DNA of 64,000 nucleotides from positions 1 to 64,000 of the forward strand of contig JAFSWZ010000035.1 in NCBI GenBank assembly GCA_017450125.1, in the 5' to 3' direction. Source of the DNA: Synergistaceae bacterium. GTDB lineage: Bacteria > Synergistota > Synergistia > Synergistales > Aminobacteriaceae. Below are positions 4,425-63,351 of the stretch, one piece after another; position 1 is the stretch's first letter, and the number at the start of each line of letters is the position of its first letter. The notes under the pieces were generated by a model that was not told the DNA's origin, searched no databases, and worked only from the letters and a program-made list of their open reading frames with translations. The position numbers and the translations under genes are program-made.

Positions 4425-4440
4425 CTGGTGGAGCTGAGGA
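4425..4440. repeat. attL core (displaced copy of the tRNA-Ala 3' end)
   Basis: CTGGTGGAGCTGAGGA is identical to 63275-63290, which covers the acceptor and T-arm 3' strand of the tRNA gene. This copy is not part of a tRNA and marks the far end of the insertion. Confidence 0.88.
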
Positions 4441-4503: not shown

Positions 4504-4524
4504 TTGTACGGTTTCTTGTACGGT
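4504..4524. repeat. Integrase arm-type sites, left end
   Basis: Two copies of TTGTACGGT (4504-4512 and 4516-4524) separated by TTC. The same arrangement occurs at 63144-63164 next to the integrase gene. Paired short repeats flanking both ends of a tyrosine-integrase element fit arm-type binding sites. Confidence 0.65.
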
Positions 4525-31538: not shown

Positions 31539-31833
31539 AATTCTGCAGGAAGACACTGCAGACACAGAGCCTGAGATATACACCGGGCCGAATATTTTAG
31601 CGTTCGGGCTGACACAATTTCAGGTGTTCAGGGGAGGGTTGCCGCTGTTTGTTGCGAGGGCAATCGAGAAAATCCCCGAGATACGAGAGCTGATAGTTCC
31701 AGTGAGTGAGCTTGAAGCCATGAGACAGAAGATAGACCGGCAGGGAACAAATGAGTCCCGGCTTTATTATTCGGTGCAGGTAGACTCCGAGAAGTTCAAC
31801 GCGGAGTACAGGAAGGGAAGGAGGCGCAGATAA
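31525..31833 (+). CDS. Small tail protein, unknown
   Basis: A 102-residue protein, acidic at the N-terminus and very basic at the end (KGRRRR). It lies directly before the sheath gene with a 1-base overlap. NILAFGLTQFQVFRGGLPLF is its hydrophobic core. Small genes at this place are common in contractile-tail phages but not characterised. Confidence 0.55.
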   Translation: MAEDEILQEDTADTEPEIYTGPNILAFGLTQFQVFRGGLPLFVARAIEKIPEIRELIVPVSELEAMRQKIDRQGTNESRLYYSVQVDSEKFNAEYRKGRRRR

Positions 31834-33296
31834 TGGCATTCAGGCATGGAGTGTACAAGTCGGAAGTCCCAACGTCATTAATCGCGCCCGTGCAGACAGA
31901 GGCAGGCTTGCCCGTAATCGTGGGTACAGCTCCGATTCATCTGGCCTCCGACGAGGAAGCATTGAGCAACGTCAACAAGCCCCAGCTCATCCACAACTAC
32001 AAGGACGCTGTTGCGCTGTTCGGATTCTCGCGCGACTGGGAGAAATACACGCTGAGTGAGTTCATCTATTCACAGTTTGCGCTGTTCGCGATGAGTCCGT
32101 GCGTGCTGATTAACGTTCTTGACCCCGCGAAGCACAAGCAGACCATCAGCCCCGCGAACTTCACGATAACCGACGGCGCAGCAAATTTGGGGCAGGACGT
32201 TATCCTTGCGAACGGAGTAACTTTCGACGGCACAACCGCATACACAGCAGGGGTAGATTACTCTCTGGGCTATGACGATGAGGGCAATGCGATTCTGTCC
32301 GTCCTAAGCGGTGGGAGGTTGGCGAACGCAAGCAGTGTGAAGGTAGGTTTCACGAAGCTCAACCCTTCAGCAGTAACGTCATACGACATAATCGGCGGGA
32401 TTGACGCGAGCACAGGAGACTACACCGGCTTTGAGCTGGTCAACCGTGTGTTCCCGAAGTTCAGGTTAGTGCCGGGATTATTGGGAAGCCCTAAGTGGTC
32501 GGAGAAGCCCGAAGTTGCGGCGGTAATGCGTGCGAAGGCTGAGAACATCAACGGCCTGTTCACTGCAATAAGCGTTGTTGACATTCCGAGCGACACAGCC
32601 GGAGCGGACAGATACACGGAAGCTCCCGAGTGGAAGAACCGCAACAACTACATGGGCACGCACGAGATAACCTGCTGGCCGAAGGTTAAGCTCGGTGATG
32701 ACGTGTTCCACCTGTCGACACAGTTAATCGGCCTCATGAACAAGACGGACTCCAACAACGAGGACGTGCCTTACGAGTCGCCGTCGAACAAGCTCCTGCA
32801 GATGAACTCCTGCGTAGTTGCTGGCGGCAAAGAAGTCGACTTAGGCATTGAGGAGGCCAATTACCTCAACGGTCAGGGCATTGTTACAGCCCTAAACTGG
32901 ATCGGAGGCTGGCGCGCGTGGGGCAACAGGACGGCGGCTTATCCCGCAAACACCGACGCTAAGGACTGCTTCATCCCCATCCGGCGAATGTTCAACTGGA
33001 TAGGCAACGAATTTATCCTCACGTTTTGGCAGAAAGTCGATGCTCCGATGACACCGCGACTAATCCGCACAATCATCAACAGTTACAACGTAAGGCTGAA
33101 CGGGTTATCCGCGCGGCAGTTCATCTTGGGCGGGCGCATCGAGTTCAACAGCACCGAGAACCCTACGACGGACTTGCTCAACGGCATTCTGAGATTTCAC
33201 ATATACATCACGCCGCCTCCGCCAGCCGAACAAATCTGGGGCATCTTCGAGTTCGACCCTGATTATTTCGACGTACTGTTTGAGGCCGTTGCGTAA
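31833..33296 (+). CDS. Tail sheath protein (P2 FI-like)
   Basis: A 487-residue contractile sheath subunit. The N-terminus FRHGVYKSEVPTSLIAPVQT and the C-terminal RRMFNWIGNEFILTFWQKVD with NVRLNGLSARQFILGGRIEF are diagnostic of the P2-type sheath. With the tube protein next to it, it fixes this phage as a myovirus. Confidence 0.95.
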   Translation: MAFRHGVYKSEVPTSLIAPVQTEAGLPVIVGTAPIHLASDEEALSNVNKPQLIHNYKDAVALFGFSRDWEKYTLSEFIYSQFALFAMSPCVLINVLDPAKHKQTISPANFTITDGAANLGQDVILANGVTFDGTTAYTAGVDYSLGYDDEGNAILSVLSGGRLANASSVKVGFTKLNPSAVTSYDIIGGIDASTGDYTGFELVNRVFPKFRLVPGLLGSPKWSEKPEVAAVMRAKAENINGLFTAISVVDIPSDTAGADRYTEAPEWKNRNNYMGTHEITCWPKVKLGDDVFHLSTQLIGLMNKTDSNNEDVPYESPSNKLLQMNSCVVAGGKEVDLGIEEANYLNGQGIVTALNWIGGWRAWGNRTAAYPANTDAKDCFIPIRRMFNWIGNEFILTFWQKVDAPMTPRLIRTIINSYNVRLNGLSARQFILGGRIEFNSTENPTTDLLNGILRFHIYITPPPPAEQIWGIFEFDPDYFDVLFEAVA

Positions 33297-41719: not shown

Positions 41720-42020
41720 GGTGCTTACGTCGCAGGAAGAGATAAATTTTGCGCCCGCGAATATCGTTGAAGAGGTAGCGCAGAACGTCAGGACAATCTG
41801 CACCACGCCGAAGTACAGCGTTCCTCTGGACAGGTTATTCGGGGTTGACGCTACAGTGATAGACCGCCCGACTCCGAAGGCCATTGCTCTGATGCAAGTC
41901 GAACTTATACAGGCAATCCGCAAGTACGAGCCTCGATGCAGGGTTAAGAAGGTGAGCTTTGACGGAGACACAGACGGGAAGCTCACAGCGAGAGTGAGGA
42001 TTGAGATTCTTGAAGAGTGA
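41709..42020 (+). CDS. Baseplate wedge protein W (gp25-like)
   Basis: A 103-residue protein of the gpW/gp25 family: VAQNVRTICTTPKYSVPLDR followed by GVDATVIDRPTPKAIALMQV and IRKYEPRCRVKKVSFDGD. It forms the wedge that triggers sheath contraction. Overlaps U by 11 bases. Confidence 0.9.
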   Translation: MEVEVLTSQEEINFAPANIVEEVAQNVRTICTTPKYSVPLDRLFGVDATVIDRPTPKAIALMQVELIQAIRKYEPRCRVKKVSFDGDTDGKLTARVRIEILEE

Positions 42021-43149
42021 TTTATTTCCGGGACTGGCTGACATAGTTTTTGCAGAGAAGTCCGCTGAAGAAATCGAGAGCGAAATCATCACCCTCTACG
42101 AACAGATCACCGAGCGCACACTTGCACGCGGAGACCCTGTGCGGTTATTCCTTGAGACTATCACGCTGATAATCATTCATCAGCGAAGCCTCATCGATTA
42201 CGCAGCAAAGCAGAACCTCTTAGCCTACGCAGAGGGTGATTACCTTGACCATTTGGGTGCGTTGCTGGAAGTTACGCGGCTTGAAGCCTCACACGCAATG
42301 ACGACGCTGAAGTTCACGCTGTCGGAAGCCCAGCCCTCAGCCGTAATCATTCCTGCGGGAACGCGGGTATCGCCCGGCGGAGGCAATCTGCTTTTCGCGA
42401 CAACGGAGGCCGCAGAGCTTCCAGCCGGAGACACAGAGACACTAATCACCGCGCAATGCACAACAGCGGGCAGTGCTGGGAATGGTTTTGTTGCGGGACA
42501 GCTCCGAAAGCTGGTTGACCCTTTCCCGTTCGAGATGTCCGTAACGAACACGACGACAACCTACGGAGGCAGTGATACTGAGAATGACGAGAATTTTCGC
42601 GAAAGGATACAGATTGCGCCTGAGAGCTTTTCAGTTGCCGGGCCTCGCGGGGCTTATGAATATTATGCGAGGTCTGCTCATCAGGATATTATTGATGTTG
42701 CAGTTGTCGGGCCGCCCGAAATTCCTCCGGGATACGTGAAGATTTACCCCCTCATGAAAGGCGGCGAGCTTCCCTCAAACGAGGTGCTTGATGCTGTGCT
42801 TGCGATCTGCAACGCGGATAACGTGAGGCCGCTGACTGACTGCGTAAGTGCGCACAAACCTGACGTTGTGAGTTACGCCCTGAACGTGAAATACTACATT
42901 GACCGCGCGAGGGCGACACAGTCAACGGAACTTCAGGCCGCAGTGAGCGAGGCAGTCAGCAACTGGGTAACATGGCAGCGTTCGAAGTTAGGACGCGACC
43001 TCAACCCCTCAGAACTGAATCACAGGATGATAGCCGCCGGAGCAAAGCGCACAGAGATAACCTCGCCGTCATTCCGGGTGCTCAAGGCCTCAGAGCTTGC
43101 GATACCCTCAACGATAACGCTGACGTTCGGGGGCTTGGAGGATGGCTAA
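42010..43149 (+). CDS. Baseplate wedge protein J (P2 gpJ-like)
   Basis: A 379-residue wedge protein: RGDPVRLFLETITLIIIHQR, YLDHLGALLEVTRLEASHA, VIIPAGTRVSPGG and SDTENDENFRERIQIAPESF are gpJ signatures. TTG at 42010 is chosen because GAGTGAGGA lies at proper distance; a TTG at 42001 is an alternative. It overlaps W by 11 bases and tail protein I by 8. Confidence 0.88.
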   Translation: MKSDLFPGLADIVFAEKSAEEIESEIITLYEQITERTLARGDPVRLFLETITLIIIHQRSLIDYAAKQNLLAYAEGDYLDHLGALLEVTRLEASHAMTTLKFTLSEAQPSAVIIPAGTRVSPGGGNLLFATTEAAELPAGDTETLITAQCTTAGSAGNGFVAGQLRKLVDPFPFEMSVTNTTTTYGGSDTENDENFRERIQIAPESFSVAGPRGAYEYYARSAHQDIIDVAVVGPPEIPPGYVKIYPLMKGGELPSNEVLDAVLAICNADNVRPLTDCVSAHKPDVVSYALNVKYYIDRARATQSTELQAAVSEAVSNWVTWQRSKLGRDLNPSELNHRMIAAGAKRTEITSPSFRVLKASELAIPSTITLTFGGLEDG

Positions 43150-47800: not shown

Positions 47801-47966
47801 GGAGTCCGGCGACCCGGAACAGGAACAAATCGGGGACGGCTGGGTTCGTTGCAAGCGGTTTATTCCGTGCGACATGTCAGCTACGAGGTTGAAGATAGTA
47901 TTGAACGGCACATCATCAGCGAGGCCGTTAGTCCAGAATATAAGTGCGGTGATTCTAAGTGCCTAA
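44850..47966 (+). CDS. Large tail appendage protein, DUF4815-like N-terminus
   Basis: A 1,038-residue virion protein. The first ~550 residues resemble DUF4815 tail proteins (LLKSPDYYNRYDKAKNWSHV, GRAMQSAEMNESQL, GISHRYDPVLPGTPPEGICL). The C-terminal half has repeated beta-sandwich-like segments, including VAGVDFWLVSKSRTSSLKIE and DTEYAITIMTD. Start TTG 44850 is set by GGAGGTGA; GTG at 44841 falls inside it. Likely a baseplate-proximal fibre or collar. Confidence 0.8.
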   Translation: MTADEIKALLKSPDYYNRYDKAKNWSHVAVLAGRAMQSAEMNESQLIAEDKIKAIGSSLYADGTIIKGCAISLDTNAKKATIEAGQIFLDGLVYEIAEKTLNVPDDADVQVGAWLKSSVLTEYEDETLTEPARNTPQYKMEGAWRVITVAEWGLNTDNLNAPFFPVYGISGGEIVTQLQKINPEYLNTTARYDRHANGHYVVEGLNVTALQSTEAGKQTYSISEGIAHINGYEAEIGHSVRLITDEAFDLAEVQSEVHRFTSGGTGRMTFTVAHTPIESVTQIRVTKERTVTLTHGNYSGCVDGLPNDSVFEVVEVKQGALIFVEGTDFLLDGDNLDWSPAGEEPAPGATYTAKYHYRTNISPNAFTKTSITVSGLFENSVIEASYYYRMPRKDIIVMYKDCSIGIVRGISHRYDPVLPGTPPEGICLAQVTQTWQGLPEVRNVAIKCVHADVLNEMRSQILDLYGLLARQELRFDATLNAPTSAYNVFVDSLFDDDMRDAGTPQTALIADQTLQLPMSTEISGLTLAKDTLLDYDVEVLIDQSAHTRDMKVNPYQAFNPLPATMTLTPAVDRWTENIVRTVISNTVSFRSSNRRHSWDVLTNTTTTTESGGNLRSITVKIDASGFGPNEAVRVIFDGIEVACSSSSANASGVFSGTFAIPEGVPAGTKLVRLQGTHTTASAYFVGIHEVRTTINYYVRYNDLDPLAQTFTLSESRHVAGVDFWLVSKSRTSSLKIELHEVSLGFPTQEVIASCTMTPSQLTVNAWNRAIFDTPVFLSADTEYAITIMTDTADYAVGIASLGDWDTAKGWIRSQAYSAGVLLLSSNASTWSADQKSDLTFRLLGAKFRTARKTLTLGNINLAGVTDIMPMAEVQRTGADTDATFILKNGSVEVARMQAWQNISFSDPLNGTYTLSVELFGDSKYSPLLGRMPQILTGKIGNTGDYVSRAFTCGMGKQVMITMEEYAPTGSSVRVFIETAANVWTESGDPEQEQIGDGWVRCKRFIPCDMSATRLKIVLNGTSSARPLVQNISAVILSA

Positions 47967-50900
47967 GTATGATGACAGAACATTAAGGGGCTGGCCGCTT
48001 CCACACAGGCAAAACAAGCTGAGTGATGACGCGGACAGGTTACGCGAAGCCCTGACCACGATAGACGCAAACATCACCGAGATTGAGGGCAACCTGCAGA
48101 GTGTCGAGGATGTCAACGAGTTTCTGAGCACCCGCATGGAAGTGATTGTGGGTCAAGCTACAGAGGACACGGAGATTCTTGATGCGCGTGTTGATGCGGA
48201 AGGGAACGTGCACCCGAACTTAGGGCACAACGTCAGAAGCATTCACGGCGGCTTGCTGCAGGTAGTAAGCGACATCAGGTACGGGATACAGGAATTTCAA
48301 GGCCTGCTGCACCAGTTCAGCGCATTAGCAGAGGCACAGATACAGGACGAGCTTAATGCGCAGGATGCTAACGAACGCCGGAAGGCCGAGCTTGCGCAGG
48401 AGTCATTGACGCGGCTGTTGCAGGATGACGGGTTGCAGAGTCAGATTAATGCGGCCTCAGAAGCGATAATGCGGACGGCGGTAACTCTCCGAGAACTCAG
48501 CGAACGTCGCAAGGCAGAACTCACACGTGAGGAGTCCTCGAGGATTTCGACGGACGACAGTTTGCAGAGAGAGATTAACGCGCTGGCGGAAGCATTCTTG
48601 AGAGACGCGCTGACACTGAGTGAGGCACTAGAACGCCGGAGAGACGCTCTAAGGCAAGAGATACAAGCTCGGATTGCTGGGGATACAGCCCTGCAGGAAC
48701 AGATTACGCGGAATGCCGAGAAGATACAGCAGGAGTCGGAGCGGCGAGCCGAGAAGGATGCAGAGATTCATGAAGCCCTCGACGTGCTGAATGAGGGAGT
48801 TGCGCTCCGTAAGTCTGAGATTGATGCAGAGACTCAGGCACGAGCAGAAGGCGACGATGGGATTGCGCGTCAGGCAAACGCGAACGCAGAGGGTATTCTG
48901 CAGACCGCCCTGAACGTGCAAGACTTGAACGCCCGGCGAAAAGCTGACTTGCTCCGTGAAGAGCAGGCCAGAATTGCGGGAGATATTGCCCTACAGGAGC
49001 TAATCGATAAGACCGCAGAGGCCAGCATTGAAAACGCGCTAGGCATTCATCAGGAAGCCCAACAGCGGCGCAAGTCCGACGAGCGCATTGAAGCCCTCAG
49101 AGATGAGACAGACCGCCGGATAGAGATTGACGCGTACCACCAGCTGCAGATTGACGAGGCAATACACGCGATCCTGCAGAACTCTCTTGCGCTGAGTGAG
49201 GCCTTAGCCCGAAGAAGGGCAGCCCTTATCCGTGAGGAGCAATCCCGCGCGGAAGAGGACGCAAACCTTCAAGGGCAGATAGACACAAACGCGACTGCGA
49301 ACATGCAGAACGCCATGAACATCCAGCAGGAGGCCGAGCACCGCAGGAAACTCTTAGAGCTGATAGCGGCGGAAACTCAGGAGCGGGAACGTCAGATACA
49401 GAATGTGCGCTCCGAGATAGGTGAACTCTATGAAGTGCCATTGCCCGGACTTCATGAGGAGCTTGGGGAACTTCAGAGGCAGACAGACGCAAACGCGGAG
49501 GCCAATATCTGGACGGCTCTCAGTCTTCATGACGGATTAGCCCGACACACAGCGGCCTTAACTCAGGAAACACAGAGCCGAGTTGCAGAGGATGCCGGAA
49601 CGCAGAGACAGATTAATGCGAACGCAGAGGGTATTCTGCAGACCGCACTTAATCTGAGCGAGGCATTCAGCAGGTATAGGGAGGCACTGACTCAGGAAGC
49701 CCGCGCCCGTGTAGAGGAAGACACGAACATTCAGGCACAGACCGACAGCAACGCAGTAGCCGCACTTGAGCTTGCCGCGAATCTCTCAGCCGAAGCCGAG
49801 AAATGCCGGGCACTTGGACAGGCAATCGCAGGCCTCAAATCTCCCATTGATTGGAGCACAGCAGAGAGCCTCGCAATCCGTGAACCACGTTGCGCAATAG
49901 TGAACTTCACGGGGCTAAGCTCAATGCCTACGACGAAGACAGCCGATATTCCCGCGTTCATGGAGTTCTGGGACATGCAGGGTAACTTTTTCCGCAAGCC
50001 CATCGTGTGCAGTGCGCAGGGCAGCTCATCATTGGGTTACGTCAAGAAGAACGTGAAGTTCGACCTGCTCAATGATGACGGCTCAAAGTTCAACCTCAAG
50101 ATTGGGAATTGGGTTGTGCAGGACGGCTTTCACCTCAAAGCGTACTACACAGATTTCTTCAGAGGAGTAGCAGTAACGAGCTACAAATTCTGGGACGAGG
50201 TCATGAGGTACAACGGCCTCGACAAGGACAGGCCATACAAGCGGGCAATGATTGACGCTTCGGAGATACAGCCGAGCGGGACGAGCCTGAACAATCCCGA
50301 CGATATGACGTTACAGCTCGACAACGGCGCGCTGTGTCATCCTGACGGCTTCCCCTGCATCGTGTACCTCAACGGTGAGTTCTACGGCGTGTATTCGTGG
50401 CAGATCAAGAAGCAGCGCAAGAATTACCGCATGGACAAGAGCACCGTTGAGCACATTCACCTTGACGGCAGCCTTTACACACAATATTTCTGGAACGGCG
50501 CAATCAACTGGACAGTCTTTGAGATACGCAACCCGAACAAGCTCTACACGATGGACGGGAAGAAGTACGACGGCGACGCACCCAAAGAGTTAATTGACGA
50601 GACATCGGAGAAGTACGACGCAAGCAACAAGGATCACGTCCGAAGCGCGAAGGTCAAGCGATACATTCAGAGCTTTGTTGAGAGGTTTGGGGAGCTGAAG
50701 CAGTTATACACAGCTTACCGTGCGAACCCCAGCGATGAGACTCTTGCGGCAGTGAAGGCGGCGTATGAAGAACTCTTTGACTGGGAGAATCAGCGCGACT
50801 ATCTCATTTTCTCGGACGTAATCAAGAACTCTGACGGTTTCGGGAAAAATTGGCAGTGGACAACCTATGACGGCGTGAAGTGGTACGTCAATGCTTACGA

Positions 50901-51621
50901 CCTCGACATGTCATACGGCGGCCATTGGCAGGGAACACAGATAACCCCTCCGCTTACAGGCCACATCACGACAAGCACAGCCCTTCCGACTGGGTACGTT
51001 GCTCTGCTGTACAAGGACGAGCTTGAGGCCAGATACAGGGAGCTGCGCGACGCAGGAATCATCAGCGTTAGTAACATTCTCTTAAAGCTGGAGAATTGGA
51101 CGGCAAGAATCGGAGTCGGAAACTACGAGCTTGAGTTCGAACGCTGGCCTAACAGCCCGTGCATCCTGAATTACACCGACAGCATTTACCGCGTCAAACG
51201 TTGGCTTGAAGTCGAGATCGCGAACATGGACAAGGTCTACAGGTACAGCACAGACACACAGCCCGAAATTGCGGAGGCTGACGACACAGAGCCGCTCATC
51301 CGCGCAGAGCAGGACACAGGAATCCTCCGGCAGGTGAACGCACTCGCTGAAGCCGACATGCGCAGTGAACTGAATCACGCTCTCCTTAACGCCGAACGCA
51401 GACGCGAGGAAGCCCAAGAGCGGGCAATCCGCGATGAGCAGGACGCGGGACTTCAAGCGCAAATCAACAGCCTTGCAGAGGCGACCATGTGGAGGCTCGT
51501 AAATGAGCATGACATGAGGCTAAGCATCAGTGAGGCAATGCAGCAAATCAAGGAGTTTCCGAGTCGTCCGGCAACAGATGATGAGTTCGACGAAATGCTG
51601 GACGAACTCTACAACGACTGA
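47959..51621 (+). CDS. Long tail fibre: coiled coil plus CotH-kinase-like domain
   Basis: A 1,220-residue protein. Residues ~1-620 are a long coiled coil of ~45-residue units with recurring RRxxLxxEExxR and NAxxIxxxALxLSEALxRRR patterns. Residues ~650-1100 resemble the CotH kinase fold: GSSSLGYVKKNVKFDLL, IVYLNGEFYGVYSWQIKK and the metal-site-like NAYDLDMSYGGHW (~980). CotH enzymes are secreted atypical protein kinases. A second short coiled coil and the motif TDDEFDEMLDELYND end the protein. GTG start overlaps the previous stop by 8 bases and has a weak ribosome site. Catalysis is not proven here. Confidence 0.78.
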   Translation: MPKYDDRTLRGWPLPHRQNKLSDDADRLREALTTIDANITEIEGNLQSVEDVNEFLSTRMEVIVGQATEDTEILDARVDAEGNVHPNLGHNVRSIHGGLLQVVSDIRYGIQEFQGLLHQFSALAEAQIQDELNAQDANERRKAELAQESLTRLLQDDGLQSQINAASEAIMRTAVTLRELSERRKAELTREESSRISTDDSLQREINALAEAFLRDALTLSEALERRRDALRQEIQARIAGDTALQEQITRNAEKIQQESERRAEKDAEIHEALDVLNEGVALRKSEIDAETQARAEGDDGIARQANANAEGILQTALNVQDLNARRKADLLREEQARIAGDIALQELIDKTAEASIENALGIHQEAQQRRKSDERIEALRDETDRRIEIDAYHQLQIDEAIHAILQNSLALSEALARRRAALIREEQSRAEEDANLQGQIDTNATANMQNAMNIQQEAEHRRKLLELIAAETQERERQIQNVRSEIGELYEVPLPGLHEELGELQRQTDANAEANIWTALSLHDGLARHTAALTQETQSRVAEDAGTQRQINANAEGILQTALNLSEAFSRYREALTQEARARVEEDTNIQAQTDSNAVAALELAANLSAEAEKCRALGQAIAGLKSPIDWSTAESLAIREPRCAIVNFTGLSSMPTTKTADIPAFMEFWDMQGNFFRKPIVCSAQGSSSLGYVKKNVKFDLLNDDGSKFNLKIGNWVVQDGFHLKAYYTDFFRGVAVTSYKFWDEVMRYNGLDKDRPYKRAMIDASEIQPSGTSLNNPDDMTLQLDNGALCHPDGFPCIVYLNGEFYGVYSWQIKKQRKNYRMDKSTVEHIHLDGSLYTQYFWNGAINWTVFEIRNPNKLYTMDGKKYDGDAPKELIDETSEKYDASNKDHVRSAKVKRYIQSFVERFGELKQLYTAYRANPSDETLAAVKAAYEELFDWENQRDYLIFSDVIKNSDGFGKNWQWTTYDGVKWYVNAYDLDMSYGGHWQGTQITPPLTGHITTSTALPTGYVALLYKDELEARYRELRDAGIISVSNILLKLENWTARIGVGNYELEFERWPNSPCILNYTDSIYRVKRWLEVEIANMDKVYRYSTDTQPEIAEADDTEPLIRAEQDTGILRQVNALAEADMRSELNHALLNAERRREEAQERAIRDEQDAGLQAQINSLAEATMWRLVNEHDMRLSISEAMQQIKEFPSRPATDDEFDEMLDELYND

Positions 51622-51683: not shown

Positions 51684-52298
51684 ATGGCATACGATCTGGA
51701 CAGTGCAATAACGATGAGGCACTACAGGAAGGGGCATCAGCAGACGCTAGCGGACATGGCGAACCTGCGCGAGGCCATCGACAACAAGTTATCGAGCGTG
51801 TACAAGGTGAAGGGATCGCTTGCGTTTGCATCCCTGACGAACGCGCTGCTTGTGAAGGCCAATGAGGGCAACGTCTACAACATCACGGACGCGTTCACGA
51901 CGACGGCAGATTTCGTGGAGGGCGCGGGCAAAAAGCACTCCGCAGGCTCAAACGTGGTGATAGTGGAGACGACGACGGCGGTATTCAGCGAGTCATCTGA
52001 CAGCACAGTAGACGCAGGGAAGACGTACTACGTGAACCAGAACGGCGGGTACAGCGCAGTAACGCCCGCAGGCAACGAAGACCCTGCGACCGAAGGCTGG
52101 TACGAGCTGACGACTCCTGCGGTGTACAAATTCGACGTTCACGCAGGCGACCTGTCGAACATGATGGAGCTTGCAGTTCCGGCCTCAGCAGGAAGCATTG
52201 CGCTCCTTAACGAGCACGGGCAGGTAATCGACAGCACGTTCAAGATAGCGACGGACGCGGAGTTTGACGAGATGCTCGGAGAACTCTACGGAGAGTAG
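51684..52298 (+). CDS. Tail fibre/appendage protein with shared C-terminal motif
   Basis: A 204-residue protein beginning ATG 51684 behind GGAGGTAAGCA. The N-terminal helix (HYRKGHQQTLADMANLREAI) is followed by a beta-rich receptor-like core with a TYYVNQNGGYSAVTP-type loop. The end, ATDAEFDEMLGELYGE, matches the C-terminus of the previous fibre at protein level. Role as a second short fibre is inferred. Confidence 0.7.
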   Translation: MAYDLDSAITMRHYRKGHQQTLADMANLREAIDNKLSSVYKVKGSLAFASLTNALLVKANEGNVYNITDAFTTTADFVEGAGKKHSAGSNVVIVETTTAVFSESSDSTVDAGKTYYVNQNGGYSAVTPAGNEDPATEGWYELTTPAVYKFDVHAGDLSNMMELAVPASAGSIALLNEHGQVIDSTFKIATDAEFDEMLGELYGE

Positions 52299-52325
52299 CG
52301 GCTATCGTCAAGAAGACAGAGGCAG

Positions 52326-52355
52326 GCGGGGAGTAACAGCCCCCGCTTGTTTGAT
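52326..52355 (+). terminator. Hairpin before the third fibre gene
   Basis: GCGGGG-AGTAACAGC-CCCCGC followed by TTGTTT. Weak T-run, so partial termination is likely. Confidence 0.5.
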
Positions 52356-52370
52356 TCAGGAGGTGGCTTT

Positions 52371-52850
52371 GTGGCTTGGTATGAATACATATTGCCCACC
52401 GTGAAGCAAATCCAGAAGCTAGCCCGCCGGAACAAGACGGCGGAAGAAGTCCTAAGCTCTCGCATTGACGCACAGGTAACGGCCTCGACGGACAGCGACG
52501 CAGACTATGCAGCAGAGGTAGCGGATGCCCGTGTTGATGTGTGGGGAAACGTGCAGGGGAGTCTAGGGAGCAACATACGAGGCGGACAAGAGAGGTTGTC
52601 TGACGCGCTGGAGTTAGCCCTGACACTGTTGCAGGGGCAGATAGACGCACTAGCCGAGACGCGAATCACTAACACCCTCGATATAGCGACAGAGGCCGAG
52701 ACGCGGCGCAACGGGCTGGCGAAGGAAGAGGAAGCCCGCACTCGAGATGATGGCTCACTGCAGAGGCAGATAGATTCATTGTCAGAGGCGGTACTAGGAA
52801 TATTAGCGATGATCTCGGAGCACCGAGAGAGGACAGGAGGAAAATCGTAA
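52371..52850 (+). CDS. Coiled-coil tail protein preceding the DGR target
   Basis: A 159-residue protein with GTG start at 52371 behind AGGAGGTGGCTT. Residues ~35-150 are coiled coil with the same ALxLLxxQIDALAETR / RRNGLAKEEEART units as the CotH fibre, so it is a paralogous stalk fragment. It abuts the DGR target gene and may trimerise it. Confidence 0.7.
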   Translation: MAWYEYILPTVKQIQKLARRNKTAEEVLSSRIDAQVTASTDSDADYAAEVADARVDVWGNVQGSLGSNIRGGQERLSDALELALTLLQGQIDALAETRITNTLDIATEAETRRNGLAKEEEARTRDDGSLQRQIDSLSEAVLGILAMISEHRERTGGKS

Positions 52851-54115
52851 TGGCAGAGACAGCGCATACAGCATGGTATCGTCAGGGTACGGTATCAGTA
52901 ACGAACGGTAGCACGGTAGTCAACGGCGACGGTACTAGATGGCTGACGGCAGGAATAAATCCCGGAGCGGCCTTCAGAGTGGACGCTAGAGGGGATTATG
53001 CGTGCGAAGTAGCGAGTGTAGAAAGCGACACGAAGATAATCTTGGTGAAGCCGTACTACGGACAGAGCGCAAACGGGCAGACGTACTCAATCGACCGTAA
53101 TCACCAGTCAACATTACCAGCAGACTTATCATCTAGGCTGTCGAAGGCGATGGGGAACTGGGAAGCTCGCTATGACCTTGACATGAAGGAAATCACCGGC
53201 AAGAGTGCGTATGAGGTAGCAGTTGAGAACGGATACATAGGCACAAAAGCGCAGTGGTTAGAGTCTCTGAAGGCGACAGGCGAGCTGACCTCGATGAAGG
53301 AATTAGTGGAGGCAGTCCTGATGCACAATTCTGGGGCACACAACGCGCTGTGCAGGGGCAAGAATCTTGGAGTATTCTCCGACGCGCAGAGTGCGGCGAT
53401 ACGCGCGGGGACATTTGCGGCGACGACCGGCGGAGTGTACGCGGACATCTACCCGAACGATTACTGGGTATTCAGCAACGTACCGTACAGCTACCTGAAC
53501 GAGAACGACGAGGAGACCTCGAGCACCTACAGCGGGACGATGAGGGTAGCCGACCTTGACTACTACCTGAGAGCCGGAGATACGGACTTGACCACGCATC
53601 ATGTGGTGGTAGTGCCCGACGCAAACATGTTCACCGCGCCGATGAACGCTACGAATACGACGGAAGGCGGCTATGTGGGGAGCAAGATGCGGACGGTGTA
53701 CCTGCGTCGTGCGGAGGCAATCTTTAAGGCGTGCTTCGGAGAGAACCACGTACTGAAGCACCGTGAATTTCTGGTGAATGCAGTGAAGGACGGCAGAGGG
53801 TCTAACTCTATATGGTGCGACAGCACGGTTGAGCTGATGGATGAGCGCATGGTGTACGGCGCAACGCAGTTTGACAGTGCGACTCCTGACGGCAGCGTAG
53901 ATCCGTGGGGTACGTTCATGATGTACAGCGTCTCGTGCAAGCAGCTGAATCTGTTCCGGCACAGGCCTGACCTGATTAGCAACAGGCAGTGGTACTGGCT
54001 GAGAAACGTTGTTTCTGCTGCGTGTTTCGCTAGTGTCCTCCTTTCTGGCGGTTGCGGCTGCCGTAATGCTTCGAATGCTGGCGGCGGTGTTCGCCCTGCT
54101 GCCCTTATCTACTAA
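52850..54115 (+). CDS. DGR target: tail tip protein with C-terminal variable lectin-like domain
   Basis: A 421-residue protein. Residues 1-85 (WYRQGTVSVTNGSTVVNGDG) match the N-terminal attachment module of many tail fibres. Residues ~116-140 hold KSAYEVAVENGYIGTKAQWL, an adhesin-type spacer. The remainder (~185-421) is a C-type-lectin/FGE-like display domain ending QWYWLRNVVSAACFAS, NASNAGGGVRP, as in known DGR variable proteins. Codons 388-417 are the variable repeat. Nine residues differ from what the template would encode. Likely displayed at the fibre tip for receptor binding. Confidence 0.93.
   Translation: MAETAHTAWYRQGTVSVTNGSTVVNGDGTRWLTAGINPGAAFRVDARGDYACEVASVESDTKIILVKPYYGQSANGQTYSIDRNHQSTLPADLSSRLSKAMGNWEARYDLDMKEITGKSAYEVAVENGYIGTKAQWLESLKATGELTSMKELVEAVLMHNSGAHNALCRGKNLGVFSDAQSAAIRAGTFAATTGGVYADIYPNDYWVFSNVPYSYLNENDEETSSTYSGTMRVADLDYYLRAGDTDLTTHHVVVVPDANMFTAPMNATNTTEGGYVGSKMRTVYLRRAEAIFKACFGENHVLKHREFLVNAVKDGRGSNSIWCDSTVELMDERMVYGATQFDSATPDGSVDPWGTFMMYSVSCKQLNLFRHRPDLISNRQWYWLRNVVSAACFASVLLSGGCGCRNASNAGGGVRPAALIY
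54011..54100 (+). repeat. DGR variable repeat (VR)
   Basis: 90 bp, 77 of them identical to 54811-54900 with no gaps. All 13 differences fall where the template has A: six... counted by position 54033, 54037, 54041, 54042, 54050, 54051, 54056, 54057, 54060, 54062, 54063, 54083 and 54099. In frame with the target gene; the final A-free block (54084-54098) is GCGGTGTTCGCCCTG, likely the initiation-of-homing region. Confidence 0.95.
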
Positions 54116-54123
54116 ATCAGTAA

Positions 54124-54150
54124 ATCTACTGGGGCTTGTCCCCAGTAGAT
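54124..54150. other. Perfect hairpin/cruciform downstream of VR
   Basis: ATCTACTGGGG (54124-54134) and CCCCAGTAGAT (54140-54150) form an 11-bp perfect stem with a 5-base loop, starting 8 bases after the target stop codon and 24 bases after VR. No T-run follows. In the Bordetella phage DGR a hairpin at this place is needed for target recognition. No such structure follows TR. Confidence 0.85.
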
Positions 54151-54165
54151 GACGGTTGATATAAT
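54136..54165 (+). promoter_or_regulatory. Candidate promoter of the DGR accessory-TR-RT unit
   Basis: TTGTCC (54136-54141), 18 bases, TATAAT (54160-54165). The -35 box lies within the loop and right arm of the hairpin, so a cruciform would occlude it. Downstream lie avd, TR and RT. Confidence 0.45.
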
Positions 54166-54194
54166 GAGAAGTCGCATTTATGGTTTTGTCCATT

Positions 54195-54211
54195 CCACCG
54201 CTTGCCGGTGG
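54195..54211 (+). other. Short hairpin in avd leader
   Basis: CCACCG (54195-54200) and CGGTGG (54206-54211) with loop CTTGC, 35 bases before the avd start. A transcript structure of unknown role. Confidence 0.4.
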
Positions 54212-54245
54212 TCGCGCTACATACGTCAAAATAGGAGGTTAAGCA

Positions 54246-54773
54246 TTGTCAAATATCCCGAAGAGTAAACGGTCAGAGTCCAAGCTGGAAGCCCTGCACC
54301 GCGCTTACGAGTTGCGCAGGAAAATTACCGCTGAACTCATGGCCACTTTCGGATACAGCCACAAGAAGCTGGAGGCTCACGTGCAGAAATTGACCTCCTA
54401 CGTTACAGACCCGGAGGAGCGCGAGAAGATGAGCAAGGCCATCCGCGAACTCGAAGACGGCTTTGACTCTTGGTTCATTCGGCGTGAACGCGACAGAGTG
54501 GCCGATTTCTGTCAGGGCATAACCGAGCACCTCAGAGCGGCAAACACAATCTGGCCGACTTACATGGCAGAGTTTCAGGAGAGACGGCTCGAAATGGATC
54601 GCGCTCTCGTGTGCTGCAACAAGTTGCAGGACGAATTGCAGTACATAGCCGAGACTTTGCCCGCTGACAAGAACAAGTTCATGAACATAGTGCTTGAAGT
54701 GCAGGCCGTTTTTGATATGATTAAGGCCTTGAGACAAGCTGACAACCGCTTTCTGAAGAACATTAAGCAGTGA
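54246..54773 (+). CDS. avd: DGR accessory protein (Avd-like)
   Basis: A 175-residue, nearly all-helical, basic protein. TTG start at 54246 follows AGGAGGTTAAGCA. Segments such as ALHRAYELRRKITAELMATF and LEVQAVFDMIKALRQADNRF fit the four-helix bundle of accessory variability determinants, which form pentamers that bind the RT and template RNA. Known Avd proteins are ~110-130 residues, so this one is larger. Position between VR and TR, and helical content, drive the call. Confidence 0.65.
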   Translation: MSNIPKSKRSESKLEALHRAYELRRKITAELMATFGYSHKKLEAHVQKLTSYVTDPEEREKMSKAIRELEDGFDSWFIRRERDRVADFCQGITEHLRAANTIWPTYMAEFQERRLEMDRALVCCNKLQDELQYIAETLPADKNKFMNIVLEVQAVFDMIKALRQADNRFLKNIKQ

Positions 54774-54810
54774 GCGTGAGTCAATAAAGTTAGGGTGTCT
54801 TTTGTTGGTC

Positions 54811-54900
54811 GTTTCTGCTGCGTGTTTCGCTAATGTCATCAATTCTGGCAATTGCAACTACAATAATGCTTCGAATGCTGGCAGCGGTGTTCGCCCTGAT
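54811..54900 (+). ncRNA. DGR template repeat (TR)
   Basis: The 90-bp template, offset exactly 800 bp from VR. It has 18 adenines, 13 of which differ in VR and 5 of which match; none of its 72 other bases differ. It lies in the non-coding gap between avd (ends 54773) and RT. Its AAT/AAC codons translate in VR to Asn-dense positions suited for mutation. RNA from this stretch would serve as template for mutagenic cDNA. Confidence 0.95.
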
Positions 54901-55042
54901 TCACTACCCGCACGACTATCGGACACAGTTTCCGTGTACGGGTGAAGGGAAGGAAAAGACATCCTTTGCGCCTTCGGGTGCATAAATGCCAATCGCCACG
55001 CTGTTAGTTACGACTAATACAGCTACAGGGCGGTTTTTCTTT

Positions 55043-56281
55043 ATGGACGAGAATATTTTTCTTGACGCTAACGTAATCTATGAGGCCGGTACAAAGGCGA
55101 TGAGGGGCAGCAACTTCAAGTATGCTACCCAGCTGTTCGAGATGAACCATCTGCTTTATACGGCAATGCTCCAGAAGTCCCTGCTTGAAGGCACATACAC
55201 ACCGACTGAGGGCAGCAGATTCCTTATCCGCGAGCGCGGAAAACCCAGATACATTACCAGTAATTCAATGGCTGATAAGACCGTCAATCACATTATCTGC
55301 GACGGCATTCTTACCCCTGCACTGAGCAAGTTCCTGATTTACGACAACGGAGCTTCGCAGAAGGGTAAGGGTGTAGATTTTCACCGCAGACGGTTTGAGG
55401 CTCACCTGCACAAATTCTTCATGAGGCACGGGAGCAATGACGGCTACATTCTGCTGGGAGACTTCACGGGCTATTACGCAAACATTCCGCACGGTAAATG
55501 CCGCTCGGTTTTGGCGCAATTCCTCTCACGCTCCGTTGAGAATCCCGACGAGCTGAGATACACATTAGGCCTGATTGCACGGATATTCGGGACGTTCCGG
55601 GTAGACGTGAGCAGGTTCACGGACGCAGAGATTCAGGCCATGATGGACGGAAAGGTTGACCCGATGCTGAACCTTCACGCTGATTCCGCGACACTGACAG
55701 GGCAGAAATTCCTCGATAAGGGCGTGGACATCGGCAACCAGATTTCCCAGAACATCGGCCTGATTTACCCTTACCGCTTCGACAACTACGCGAAGATTGT
55801 CGCGGGTATTGAGGGCTACGGCAGGTACACCGATGACTTCTATGCAATCTCGGACAGCCGCGAGGAATTGAGGACTCTGCTTGACGGGCTGAGAGTGATA
55901 GCTCATGAGTTCGGGATAATCCTCAACGAGCGCAAGACACGGATTGTAAAACTCTCCGGCTTCTATCGGCACTTGCAGAACGGCTACAGCCTCACGGAAA
56001 CAGGGCGGGTGATCCGCAAGATTAACCCCAAGAGCATAACGAGAGAGCGCAGAAAGCTGAAAGCCTACAAGAGGCTGCTTGACGCGGGGAAGATAACGTA
56101 CAGCGAGATAGAAAATATTTTCAAGAGCTGGCTGGGCGGCAACTTTCGCAGGATGTCGCACCGCCAAATTTATAACATGACAGACCTGTTTATCAGGCTA
56201 TTTAGGAGGAGACCGAAATGGAAAAAGGGACATTCACGGTTACGCTGGCTGATGGAACACAGCTCAGCGGATTGGGGCTGA
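55043..56281 (+). CDS. DGR-type reverse transcriptase
   Basis: A 412-residue RT. Motif A-like LLGDFTGYYANIPH (Asp ~140), the DGR-specific motif IGNQISQ (~230) where retroviral and group II RTs have other residues, and catalytic YTDDFYAIS (~262). The thumb/C-terminal basic part ends RRRPKWKKGHSRLRWL. Starting ATG at 55043 matches the N-terminus of related short DGR RTs; an ATG at 54986 would add 19 residues. Its error-prone copying at adenine of TR RNA yields variants for VR. Overlaps the next gene by 64 bases. Confidence 0.93.
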   Translation: MDENIFLDANVIYEAGTKAMRGSNFKYATQLFEMNHLLYTAMLQKSLLEGTYTPTEGSRFLIRERGKPRYITSNSMADKTVNHIICDGILTPALSKFLIYDNGASQKGKGVDFHRRRFEAHLHKFFMRHGSNDGYILLGDFTGYYANIPHGKCRSVLAQFLSRSVENPDELRYTLGLIARIFGTFRVDVSRFTDAEIQAMMDGKVDPMLNLHADSATLTGQKFLDKGVDIGNQISQNIGLIYPYRFDNYAKIVAGIEGYGRYTDDFYAISDSREELRTLLDGLRVIAHEFGIILNERKTRIVKLSGFYRHLQNGYSLTETGRVIRKINPKSITRERRKLKAYKRLLDAGKITYSEIENIFKSWLGGNFRRMSHRQIYNMTDLFIRLFRRRPKWKKGHSRLRWLMEHSSADWG

Positions 56282-56565
56282 ACGGAAATAACTTCGTCAG
56301 CAAGAAGGAAGTAACAGCGGACACATTCAGGGGCAAGCTCTCGAAGGTAATCATTGAGGGCGACGCAGAGGCCGACGAAGCAGGACTCATTGGTACGCAC
56401 CACAACATGGAGCTTGTGCAGATTGCGCACTATACGCAGGCGACACATGGGTGCGAGGACGGCTACTACTTCGTGCTGAGGGAGATTCCGGCGGCAGAGC
56501 TTGAGGCTCTCAGGAATCGCGGGGATATCGACTACATCGCGATGATGACGGGCGTGGAACTGTAG
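56218..56565 (+). CDS. Small phage protein after DGR, unknown
   Basis: A 115-residue protein starting within the RT gene, 64 bases before its end, behind TTAGGAGGAGACCGAA. Beta-rich N-terminus (GTFTVTLADGTQLSGLGLNG) then a helical tail. The strong ribosome site shows independent translation. Possibly a tail-fibre accessory protein, as is common before XkdX. Confidence 0.6.
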   Translation: MEKGTFTVTLADGTQLSGLGLNGNNFVSKKEVTADTFRGKLSKVIIEGDAEADEAGLIGTHHNMELVQIAHYTQATHGCEDGYYFVLREIPAAELEALRNRGDIDYIAMMTGVEL

Positions 56566-56577
56566 GAGGTGAAGGCA

Positions 56578-56712
56578 ATGTTCGAGAAGATCAAGAAGTA
56601 TTACGACGCTGGCGTGTGGGACGAACACAGAGTGCGTGAGGCGGTCGCAAAGAACGTAATCACGGCGGAAGAGTTCAAGGCAATAACGGGAAAGGGACTG
56701 CTCGGAGAATAA
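56578..56712 (+). CDS. XkdX-like small protein
   Basis: A 44-residue protein: MFEKIKKYYDAGVWDEHRVR, then VITAEEFKAITGK, the classic XkdX layout of phages with long fibres. ATG 56578 follows GGAGGTGAAGGCA. Function of the family is unknown. Confidence 0.8.
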   Translation: MFEKIKKYYDAGVWDEHRVREAVAKNVITAEEFKAITGKGLLGE

Positions 56713-56784
56713 CCGGGCAGTTATTTTTTGCGGGGAGGCTCAGTGCGGGTCTCCCTGCTTTCGTGTTATTTGGGAGGTATAAGA

Positions 56785-57171
56785 ATGGCTAACGATACGA
56801 AGAATTTCAAGGCTGCGGAGTTCACATGTCATTGCGGATGCGGAAAGAACGAGATTCAGCAGCCCGTCCTGAACATGTGCCAGAAGATACGCGACGAACT
56901 TGGGCAGGCCGTCAGAATCAACAGTGGGTACAGATGCCCGAAGCACAACGCAAAGGTGAGCAAGGCTAAGGCTTCCCGCCACACTATGGGCAAGGCCGCT
57001 GACCTCAGCTCAGCAGGCGGCGCGCTCTCCATTCTGCTGGCGGTTCACAAACTCTTTCTCGCGGGCAGGCTCCCGGAGCTGGGATACTGCATCTATTACC
57101 CCAACAAGAATTTCGTTCACATTGACCTTGACACCAGGCCGAGCGGCAAAGTCTTTGAGGTCTCGCTATGA
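56785..57171 (+). CDS. M15 peptidase endolysin
   Basis: A 128-residue D-Ala-D-Ala-type peptidase: FTCHCGCGKNEI, YRCPKHNAKV, RHTMGKAADL (His and Asp zinc ligands) and FVHIDLDTRPSG (His ligand). It cuts peptidoglycan for lysis. ATG at 56785 follows GGGAGGTATAAGA; a longer upstream start would lie in the XkdX-M15 gap. Couples by 4 bases to holin. Confidence 0.9.
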   Translation: MANDTKNFKAAEFTCHCGCGKNEIQQPVLNMCQKIRDELGQAVRINSGYRCPKHNAKVSKAKASRHTMGKAADLSSAGGALSILLAVHKLFLAGRLPELGYCIYYPNKNFVHIDLDTRPSGKVFEVSL

Positions 57172-59489: not shown

Positions 59490-60437
59490 ATGACGGACAA
59501 GACAGCAGCACAGATAGCGAACATGAAGAAGCAGACAATCGGTGTAGAAGTTGAGATGAACGGCATCACGCGCAAGAACGCCGCAATGGTTGCCGCCGAT
59601 TTCTTCGGGACGCACCAGTACGAGTGCACAGCCGGGCGCAACGGTTATTCAACGTGGAGCGCATGGGACGCAGAGAGCCGCGAATGGAAATTCCAGAAGG
59701 ATGTGAGCATTCAGGGCAACGACGACGAGAAGTGCGAGCTTGTTACGCCGATCCTGCGCTACGAGGACATCGAAACATTGCAGGGACTGCTTCGGGTACT
59801 CAGGAAGGCCGGAGCACAGAGCAGTGCATCAAGGGGATGCGGAGTTCACATCCACGTAGGCCTCAAGAGCGAAGCCGGAGACCACACAGCGCAGACGCTC
59901 ACCAATTTGGCGAACATGATGGCCGCGCACGAAGAGCAGATAGGCCGGGCAATCAAGATTTCCGAGCACAGAGTTGCGGGGTACTGCCAGACAGTCAGCC
60001 GCGCATTCCTGGACAGGCTCAACGCGCAGAAGCCCCAGACCATGAGCCAGCTTGCGGACATCTGGTACGAGGGCAACGGAGCGAATTACCGCCGCGATGA
60101 ACACTACAATAACAGCCGCTATCACATGCTGAACCTGCACGCCTGCTTCACGAAAGGCACGATAGAGTTCCGGTTGTTCCAGTTCGACGAACCCCACGAC
60201 GGCAAGAAGGGCGGAATACACTGCGGACAGCTCAAGGCCTACATTCAGCTCTGCCTTGCGATGAGCCAGCTTGCGAAGGAGCTCAAGAGTGCGAGACCGA
60301 AGCCCCAGCAGAGGGAGAATGAGAAGTACGCATTCCGCTGCTGGATGCTGAGACTGGGCTTCATCGGGGCGGAGTTCAAGACCGCAAGAACACTCCTTTT
60401 GCGGAACGTAAGCGGCGACGGAGCATGGAGGCACTAA
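59490..60437 (+). CDS. Putative amidoligase
   Basis: A 315-residue protein. TIGVEVEMNGITRKNAAMVA, WKFQKDVSIQGNDDEKCELV, SRGCGVHIHVGLK and FTKGTIEFRLFQFDEPHD are features of the Amidoligase_2 family (a glutamine-synthetase-like fold). Family members are predicted to form peptide or protein amide bonds using ATP. A gamma-glutamylcyclotransferase-like gene two positions on would be the antagonistic or processing enzyme, an association seen in other mobile elements. Substrate unknown. Confidence 0.8.
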   Translation: MTDKTAAQIANMKKQTIGVEVEMNGITRKNAAMVAADFFGTHQYECTAGRNGYSTWSAWDAESREWKFQKDVSIQGNDDEKCELVTPILRYEDIETLQGLLRVLRKAGAQSSASRGCGVHIHVGLKSEAGDHTAQTLTNLANMMAAHEEQIGRAIKISEHRVAGYCQTVSRAFLDRLNAQKPQTMSQLADIWYEGNGANYRRDEHYNNSRYHMLNLHACFTKGTIEFRLFQFDEPHDGKKGGIHCGQLKAYIQLCLAMSQLAKELKSARPKPQQRENEKYAFRCWMLRLGFIGAEFKTARTLLLRNVSGDGAWRH

Positions 60438-61940: not shown

Positions 61941-63092
61941 TCAGGAAGGGCAAGATAACCCGTCCAAGTAATCAGCCCACCACTGCATCAGCTTGATTCT
62001 CTCCGGCATGTATTCTGCGTGATTGTATGCCCCGCGCACCGTGTTTTCCTCAACGTGTGCAAGCTGTCGCTCGATTACGTCGCGGTTGATCCCGTGTTCA
62101 TTGGCGATTGTTGAGAACATTGCCCGGAAGCCGTGCGGCGTGATTTGCTCCTTTGTGAAACCGATTGTCCGAAGTGCGACCCTGACTCCATTCTCCGACA
62201 TACAGTGCCCGTTGTTGCGAGGAGTCGGGAACAGCCAGCGGCCGTTGCCCGTTATCGGCCTCAGTTCCTCAAGCACAGCCTTCACCTGCACGGACAGCGG
62301 GACTATATGGCGACGCTTCATCTTCATCTTGCCCGCAGGAATGTCCCAGACATCGCCCTTAATTTCCGACCATTCTGCAGAGCGAACCTCTCCCGGACGT
62401 GCGAACGTATACACAGAGAAGAGCATTGCACAGCGCATCACCGTGTAAGGGTAAGCCTTCATTGCCCGCATCAGGATTGCTATATCGGCGGGATTCGTGA
62501 GAGTTGCGTAGTGCTTGTTGTTGCGTGGCCGGAGTGCTCCTAGAAGCGCGGCGGTCGGATCGCTGTCGGTGTACCCTGCGGCTATGGCATAGCGATATAT
62601 CTGCCCGATAACGGTCTTCACGCGTTTAGCCGTCTCATCATGCCCTGTATCCTCAATGCTCCGGCAAACCTGCAGAATATTTCCCGACGTTATCTCTCGG
62701 AGCGGCCAAGACCCGAGCGCGGGCAGTATGTATTTCTCGAGACGGAAGCGGACAGTGCGCAGGTAGCTCTCTGCTTTGTCTTTCATGCGGACGGTCAGCC
62801 ATTCATCAGCGGCATCGGAGAATGTTTGCGGGACTCTGGCCGTTTTCAGCGTGGGACTCTCTCCTTTGGCTCTGGCCATCTGAATCTCATCACGTTTTAT
62901 GCGGGCATCTTTAAGGGATAAATCAGGATACGGGCCGAGCGATAATTTATGCTCCTTGTTGTTTTCCCAGTAACGCAGAATCCAATATTTGCGCCCTGAT
63001 GGGTCAACCCGAAGATACAGCCCTTTATCATCACGCACCATGTAGCTGTGTTCACGAGGCTTTGCGTTCTTGACCTGTAACTCTGTCAGCAT
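61941..63092 (-). CDS. int: Prophage integrase (tyrosine recombinase)
   Basis: A 383-residue integrase of the P4/DUF4102 type. An arm-binding N-terminus (LTELQVKNAKPREHSYMVRD, DDKGLYLRVDPSGRKYWILR), core-binding middle, and catalytic residues Arg in FARPGEVRSAEW, HGFR and the Tyr in GAYNHAEYM. It is next to attR and reads toward the phage interior; its promoter is probably in the 63093-63274 gap with the arm sites. It inserts at the tRNA-Ala 3' end. Confidence 0.95.
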   Translation of the reverse strand: MLTELQVKNAKPREHSYMVRDDKGLYLRVDPSGRKYWILRYWENNKEHKLSLGPYPDLSLKDARIKRDEIQMARAKGESPTLKTARVPQTFSDAADEWLTVRMKDKAESYLRTVRFRLEKYILPALGSWPLREITSGNILQVCRSIEDTGHDETAKRVKTVIGQIYRYAIAAGYTDSDPTAALLGALRPRNNKHYATLTNPADIAILMRAMKAYPYTVMRCAMLFSVYTFARPGEVRSAEWSEIKGDVWDIPAGKMKMKRRHIVPLSVQVKAVLEELRPITGNGRWLFPTPRNNGHCMSENGVRVALRTIGFTKEQITPHGFRAMFSTIANEHGINRDVIERQLAHVEENTVRGAYNHAEYMPERIKLMQWWADYLDGLSCPS

Positions 63093-63115: not shown

Positions 63116-63164
63116 ACCGTACAAAGACGGTACGGTGATTGCGTTGTACGGTTTCTTGTACGGT
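63116..63164. repeat. Integrase arm-type sites, right end
   Basis: An inverted ACCGTACAA (63116-63124) and two direct TTGTACGGT copies (63144-63152, 63156-63164). The latter pair matches the left end (4504-4524), so both arms bear the same sites. Confidence 0.65.
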
Positions 63165-63274: not shown

Positions 63275-63290
63275 CTGGTGGAGCTGAGGA
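63275..63290. repeat. attR core (tRNA-Ala 3' end)
   Basis: Same 16 bases as 4425-4440; here part of the functional tRNA gene. Confidence 0.88.
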
Positions 63291-63351
63291 GATTCGAACT
63301 CCCGGCCTCGACAATGCGAATGTCGCGCGCTCCCAACTGCGCTACAGCCCC
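63276..63351 (-). tRNA. tRNA-Ala (anticodon CGC)
   Basis: Complete cloverleaf read leftward: acceptor GGGGCTG with CAGCTCC, D-arm GCGC/GCGC, anticodon stem CGACA/TGTCG with loop TTCGCAT (anticodon CGC), T-arm GGGAG-TTCGAAT-CTCCT, and encoded CCA. The CGC anticodon reads GCG codons. It keeps its full 3' end despite the phage insertion, because the phage supplies the same 16 bases. Confidence 0.95.

Follow-up and report, generated by a model that had tools for sequence, protein, structure and literature searches.

A prophage of a rumen Synergistaceae bacterium carries what we take, with a probability of about 0.96, to be a complete and intact-looking diversity-generating retroelement (DGR) that rewrites the VR of a tail-fibre-type target gene. 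Judged from its sequence, the DGR is genuine, complete and probably functional, and we infer that the copy in the window (the whole stretch of 64,000 nucleotides that was analysed) is active now and works by the same mechanism as that of BPP-1. It is a DGR of a known kind and adds a further case to a widespread system; where it departs from the literature is the 5-nt hairpin loop of its lineage. The main interest lies in this loop class, and in natural phage pairs that differ almost only in VR, rather than in the discovery of a DGR as such. Moreover, the element provides a clean and complete reference for a DGR lineage common to gut and rumen prophages of Synergistaceae and Clostridia.

All parts of the cassette are on the + strand and follow one another in the order target gene (52850-54115, 421 aa), VR (54011-54100), hairpin (54124-54150), Avd-like gene (54246-54773), TR (54811-54900) and reverse transcriptase (RT) gene (54986-56281), which is the order given in the initial annotation and confirmed by the coordinates. 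The gapless alignment of VR with TR covers 90 columns, a span delimited by non-A mismatches at 54010 and immediately past 54100, and its recomputation gave the same counts as claimed at first: 13 mismatches, all of which fall on adenines of TR, with 18 adenines in TR and 72 of the 72 non-A columns identical. The probability that all mismatches fall at A by chance is 5e-12 when all 13 sites are counted (13/13; 18 A among 90 columns) and 3e-11 when the count is restricted to the mutagenic ones (12/12; 17 A among 88); at a level of ~1e-11, the claim that chance cannot explain the pattern holds. The pair was also recovered by an unbiased repeat finder, and VR, which is in frame, leaves 15 nt of the target ORF after it. 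The whole genome contains one VR and one TR, and a search for a further VR elsewhere in it found none. Within 52000-57000 there were no Rfam matches, and the TR-RT spacer RNA folded no better than its shuffles (z -1.2).

One of the 13 differences does not result from mutagenesis. At this site VR has C (54099) and TR has A (54899), a difference that was constant in 18/18 alignable family loci, the nineteenth (L033) being out of register. Since a randomised site would not stay constant, it is a fixed IMH*/IMH difference, which is a known trait of DGRs (PMC10743442, PMC4372165). It lies directly behind the GC-rich GTGTTCGCCCTG stretch, within the IMH-like 3' end of VR (54086-54105, + strand), where the family alignment places fixed differences from TR; the IMH of VR is unlike the IMH*-like 3' end of TR, GTGTTCGCCCTGATTCACT (54886-54905, + strand). 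When viral contigs were scanned with a motif of the IMH region, four stretches matched. With 54099 fixed, 12 mutagenic differences remain, distributed over the 17 adenines that precede the IMH*-type end. The 18 TR adenines counted in the initial annotation are thus present, but the mutable number is 17, and the 4^18 variants proposed there become 4^17 at the DNA level, corresponding by arithmetic from the sequence to about 15^7 x 4^3 = ~1e10 proteins. These 17 adenines sit in 10 codons (7 AAY, 1 ATC, 1 TAC and 1 AGC), all of which end in T or C; the mutable adenines are confined to codon positions 1-2, and consequently stop codons cannot arise in VR variants.

The RT is an intact ORF of 431 aa that matches Pfam RVT_1 and the PHROG reverse transcriptase, and its top solved relative by sequence is 8ub7_A, the RT of a DGR ribonucleoprotein. 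Its motifs YTDD and IGNQISQ are those of a DGR-type RT ([ILV]GxxxSQ, YxDD) adjacent to the repeats, and of 40 RTs that were compared, 39 have the form [IL]GxxxSQ. An insert of ~33 residues between the RT core motifs is common to the RTs of Synergistaceae and of Acutalibacter phage Fontainebleau, and is absent from aligned Clostridia homologues.

The product of the Avd-like gene (175 aa, TTG start) matched no Avd model in Pfam, NCBIfam or PHROGs, a PDB profile search gave chance-level helical matches only, and Foldseek alone found no match to its model at E <= 0.001. The predicted model is a four-helix bundle (pLDDT 80) with long helices 1-2. In VIA-align it superposed on BPP-1 Avd (4dwl_C; Z 13.7, 109 aligned of 110, 2.0 Å) and on the Avd chains of the DGR ribonucleoprotein (8ub7_E, Z 14.0; 8ub8_C, Z 14), scores that should be interpreted with some caution since unrelated helical bundles likewise reach Z 13-14. 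The top rows were S23-family proteins (2gsc_D and 2rld_B, Z 16). Based on the near-full coverage, the low rmsd and the position of the gene, the accessory protein is assigned as an Avd by predicted fold, as the initial annotation had it, in spite of the missing sequence-model match. The gene was present in every complete family cassette read.

According to the mechanism we propose, the RT would copy TR RNA, aided by the Avd-like protein, and template adenines would be misread as random bases during cDNA synthesis. The cDNA would then replace VR at the 3' end of the target gene, guided by the IMH and the downstream hairpin. TR itself, we propose, would stay unchanged because it has an IMH*-type 3' end and no such hairpin adjoins it.

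Several known systems can be compared with this cassette. The BPP-1 DGR (mtd-avd-TR-brt), recovered by the same script as a positive case, has in common the order target-VR-hairpin-avd-TR-RT, the adenine-only changes, a hairpin just past VR and the Avd fold. It differs in its loop (GAAA, 4 nt, as opposed to CTTGT, 5 nt), in its avd gene (387 nt, as opposed to an Avd-like protein of 175 aa with longer helices 1-2), in a far diverged RT sequence and in its target, which is Mtd. Phage Fontainebleau (ON453893) has an RT that is 56% identical over 93% and shares the core insert, and it has a VR/TR pair and a 5-nt loop hairpin that were detected in the present analysis; its host, however, belongs to another phylum, and the RT alone is annotated among its DGR parts. 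Roseburia phage Shimadzu (LR596903) has an annotated tail fibre-Avd-RT cassette by its baseplate genes and the 5-nt loop CTCGT, but its RT is 35% identical and its avd gene is shorter (411 nt). The DGRs of Faecalibacterium phages are similar in that their targets are of the DUF6273 type, the domain having VR as its C-terminal end, and in their baseplate J-type tails (PMC11792537), whereas their RTs are about 28% identical and the hairpin of Pioen has a GGAA tetraloop.

The hairpin or cruciform directly downstream of VR begins 24 nt beyond the final VR base and consists of an 11-bp perfect stem and the 5-nt loop CTTGT. Its DNA fold has a z of about -4, and 0/200 shuffles folded equally well, on either strand. 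Among 35 distinct family regions, 34 contained a perfect stem of at least 6 bp, as opposed to 8% of shuffles, and 33 of these 34 hairpins had a 5-nt loop, as opposed to 1.3% of shuffles; as the search demanded perfect stems, the pairing is given by construction, and loop size and sequence were left free. The family hairpins comprise 20 distinct stems, are similar in position and alike in loop class: CTTGT (13), TTTAT (13), CTCGT (3), CTTGC (2), CCTGC, CGTGT and one 6-nt CTCCGC. Ten other phage DGRs, analysed with much the same script, gave 4-nt loops in seven cases (GAAA, GGAA, GGTA and one GTCA; GRNA in 6/7), 5-nt loops in none and no hairpin in three. The canonical hairpin of phage DGRs has a stem of 7-10 bp and a 4-nt GRNA loop (PMC3240598), from which the 5-nt CTTGT of the window departs, and nanoarchaeal DGR hairpins have GRA triloops (PMC4372165). 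A limited literature search found no published report of a pentaloop class.

In BPP-1 both the size and the sequence of the loop are critical, and homing is near background if the loop gains as little as 2 nt or if CTTT replaces GAAA (PMC3240598). Given this intolerance of loop enlargement and substitution, the RT-Avd complex of the present element may have another, co-evolved loop specificity. It could be hypothesized, and we hold this to be slightly short of an even chance, that this lineage of DGRs from rumen and gut phages finds its target via a distinct class of hairpin, with variable, mostly GC-rich stems and a conserved pyrimidine-rich pentaloop (CTTGT/TTTAT types), together with an elongated Avd. 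If true, there would be classes of DGRs that should not cross-recognise targets. On the RT tree the loop classes cluster strongly; however, the 5-nt and 4-nt labels need two changes, not one, with Shimadzu (5-nt) grouping with 4-nt rows on an open, long-branch fork, and the tree thus falls short of demonstrating a single origin of the pentaloop. The pentaloop bears on an open question in DGR biology, namely what reads the hairpin loop. A pyrimidine-rich third loop class, kept while the stems vary, suggests that the component which reads the loop is not the same in all lineages, and such a lineage-specific component could be mapped by loop swaps.

Relatives of the RT were found in Synergistaceae of the same genus (67-89% identity, long matches), in Clostridia MAGs (46-54%) and on viral contigs, and many of those with enough flank showed the same cassette by the adenine-biased repeat script. 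In 44 distinct VR/TR pairs, including loci added via Avd alignment, 621 of 1097 TR adenines were changed (to G in 297, C in 191 and T in 133 cases) compared with 20 of 3034 other bases, counts that are descriptive and constitute no unbiased test since the script favours adenine mismatches. The initial annotation predicted that VR variants among relatives would differ at adenines only, and variation of this sort was found in two near-identical pairs. Loci L044 and L046 have 0 differences in 2771 nt outside VR and differ at 19 of 95 VR sites, 18 of them at TR A, and between L038 and L039 there is 1 difference in 2712 sites outside VR, as opposed to 14 in the 95 sites within it, all at TR A. Divergence confined almost entirely to VR in both pairs indicates DGR activity in nature, and is indirect support for mutagenic retrohoming, in phages whose RTs are ~51-53% identical to that of the window and which are not the window's own phage. 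A separate observation concerns L033, a 3.7-kb contig labelled Ruminococcus, which carries a DGR cassette with an RT 74% identical to that of the window and close to Synergistaceae RTs; misbinning is a likelier explanation for it than a cross-phylum phage.

Weak matches of the RT to the NCBIfam group II, Drt and retron models could be taken to mean that it belongs to another system (a group II intron, a retron or an antiviral DRT) that happens to lie next to an unrelated degenerate repeat. We consider this extremely improbable, as the scores are far under the curated cut-offs, the repeats differ at adenines only, the hairpin and the Avd fold are present, and the top solved relative is a DGR RT; moreover, the whole cassette is kept across the family, with family-wide adenine specificity. 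A more serious alternative, though still an unlikely one, is that the DGR was once active and is now silent, so that the changes in VR are old and new ones have ceased to arise. Congeneric relatives lend it some weight. Their RTs are broken by stops or frameshifts in L009, L014, L019, L026 and L012/L031, and in L009 (1225-1480), L032 (820-1065) and L035 (6640-6880) VR and TR are fused into one repeat, with the VR flank upstream, the TR flank downstream and avd missing. The fusions look as if VR-TR recombination had deleted avd and frozen the target, a collapse in the assembly being a possible alternative, and together with the broken RTs they are pointing to frequent DGR decay in this genus. 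The parts in the window are nevertheless all intact, from the full-length RT with both of its motifs to the Avd ORF, the hairpin, the IMH and a stop-free target, and the DGR is probably functional.

With regard to the target itself, the gene closes the tail operon, and residues 8-140 of its product match tail-fibre PHROGs. DUF6273 gave no match in the window target; when family targets were aligned, 12/14 matched DUF6273 and 6 matched the N-terminus of tail-collar fibres. Published models of DUF6273 show a CLec fold that carries VR on a surface beta-hairpin (PMC10743442). What bears on a putative CLec fold here are the DUF6273 matches in those 12 family targets and a window model that is too poor in its C-terminal part for a fold to be assigned (pLDDT 52). 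A structure search with the target returned an IgA peptidase as the sole row above Z 5 (Z 7.6), which is below a trustworthy level, and this candidate was rejected. We infer that the target binds a host receptor and that VR variation changes the host range. The initial annotation had spoken of a receptor-binding tip and of a host changing its surface; the profile match supports a tail-fibre-like N-terminus, and the receptor and host roles keep the conditional standing just given, the C-terminal model being poor. Tentaclins that carry Ig-like domains, for which binding to receptors or to intestinal cells has been proposed, are another setting of DUF6273 targets (PMC10743442), and the target could by analogy be a virion display or mucus-binding protein whose variation serves non-receptor attachment. 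We find this rather improbable, as the gene ends a tail operon and its N-terminus resembles those of tail fibres, and a receptor-binding tail fibre stays the likelier reading of the target.

The DGR resides, as claimed at the outset, in a contractile-tail prophage. The prophage spans about 58.9 kb (4425-63290) between copies of a 16-bp att repeat (4425-4440 = 63275-63290) that is the 3' end of tRNA-Ala (63276-63351, - strand), the integration site. It encodes an integrase (61941-63092, - strand), a tail sheath (31833-33296, + strand; phrog_23, E 5.5e-86), a baseplate wedge subunit (42001-43149, + strand; phrog_6, E 9.6e-84), a tape measure, terminase, portal and major head protein, as well as a repressor-like HTH protein, DnaB, primase and holin. 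The host is a rumen Synergistaceae MAG with an assembly of 2.16 Mb, and the nearest named relatives of the RT are likewise from rumen Synergistaceae. Near both prophage ends (4504-4524 and 63144-63164) there is a 21-bp repeat, TTGTACGGTTTCTTGTACGGT, which contains TTGTACGGT twice; these repeats are possible arm-type sites of the integrase. Directly upstream of the tail-fibre genes, 47959-51621 encodes a 1220-aa protein with a CotH kinase domain (E 6e-11), an odd component for a tail operon, and an Amidoligase_2 family enzyme (59490-60437, 172 bits) is encoded between the lysis genes and the prophage integrase.
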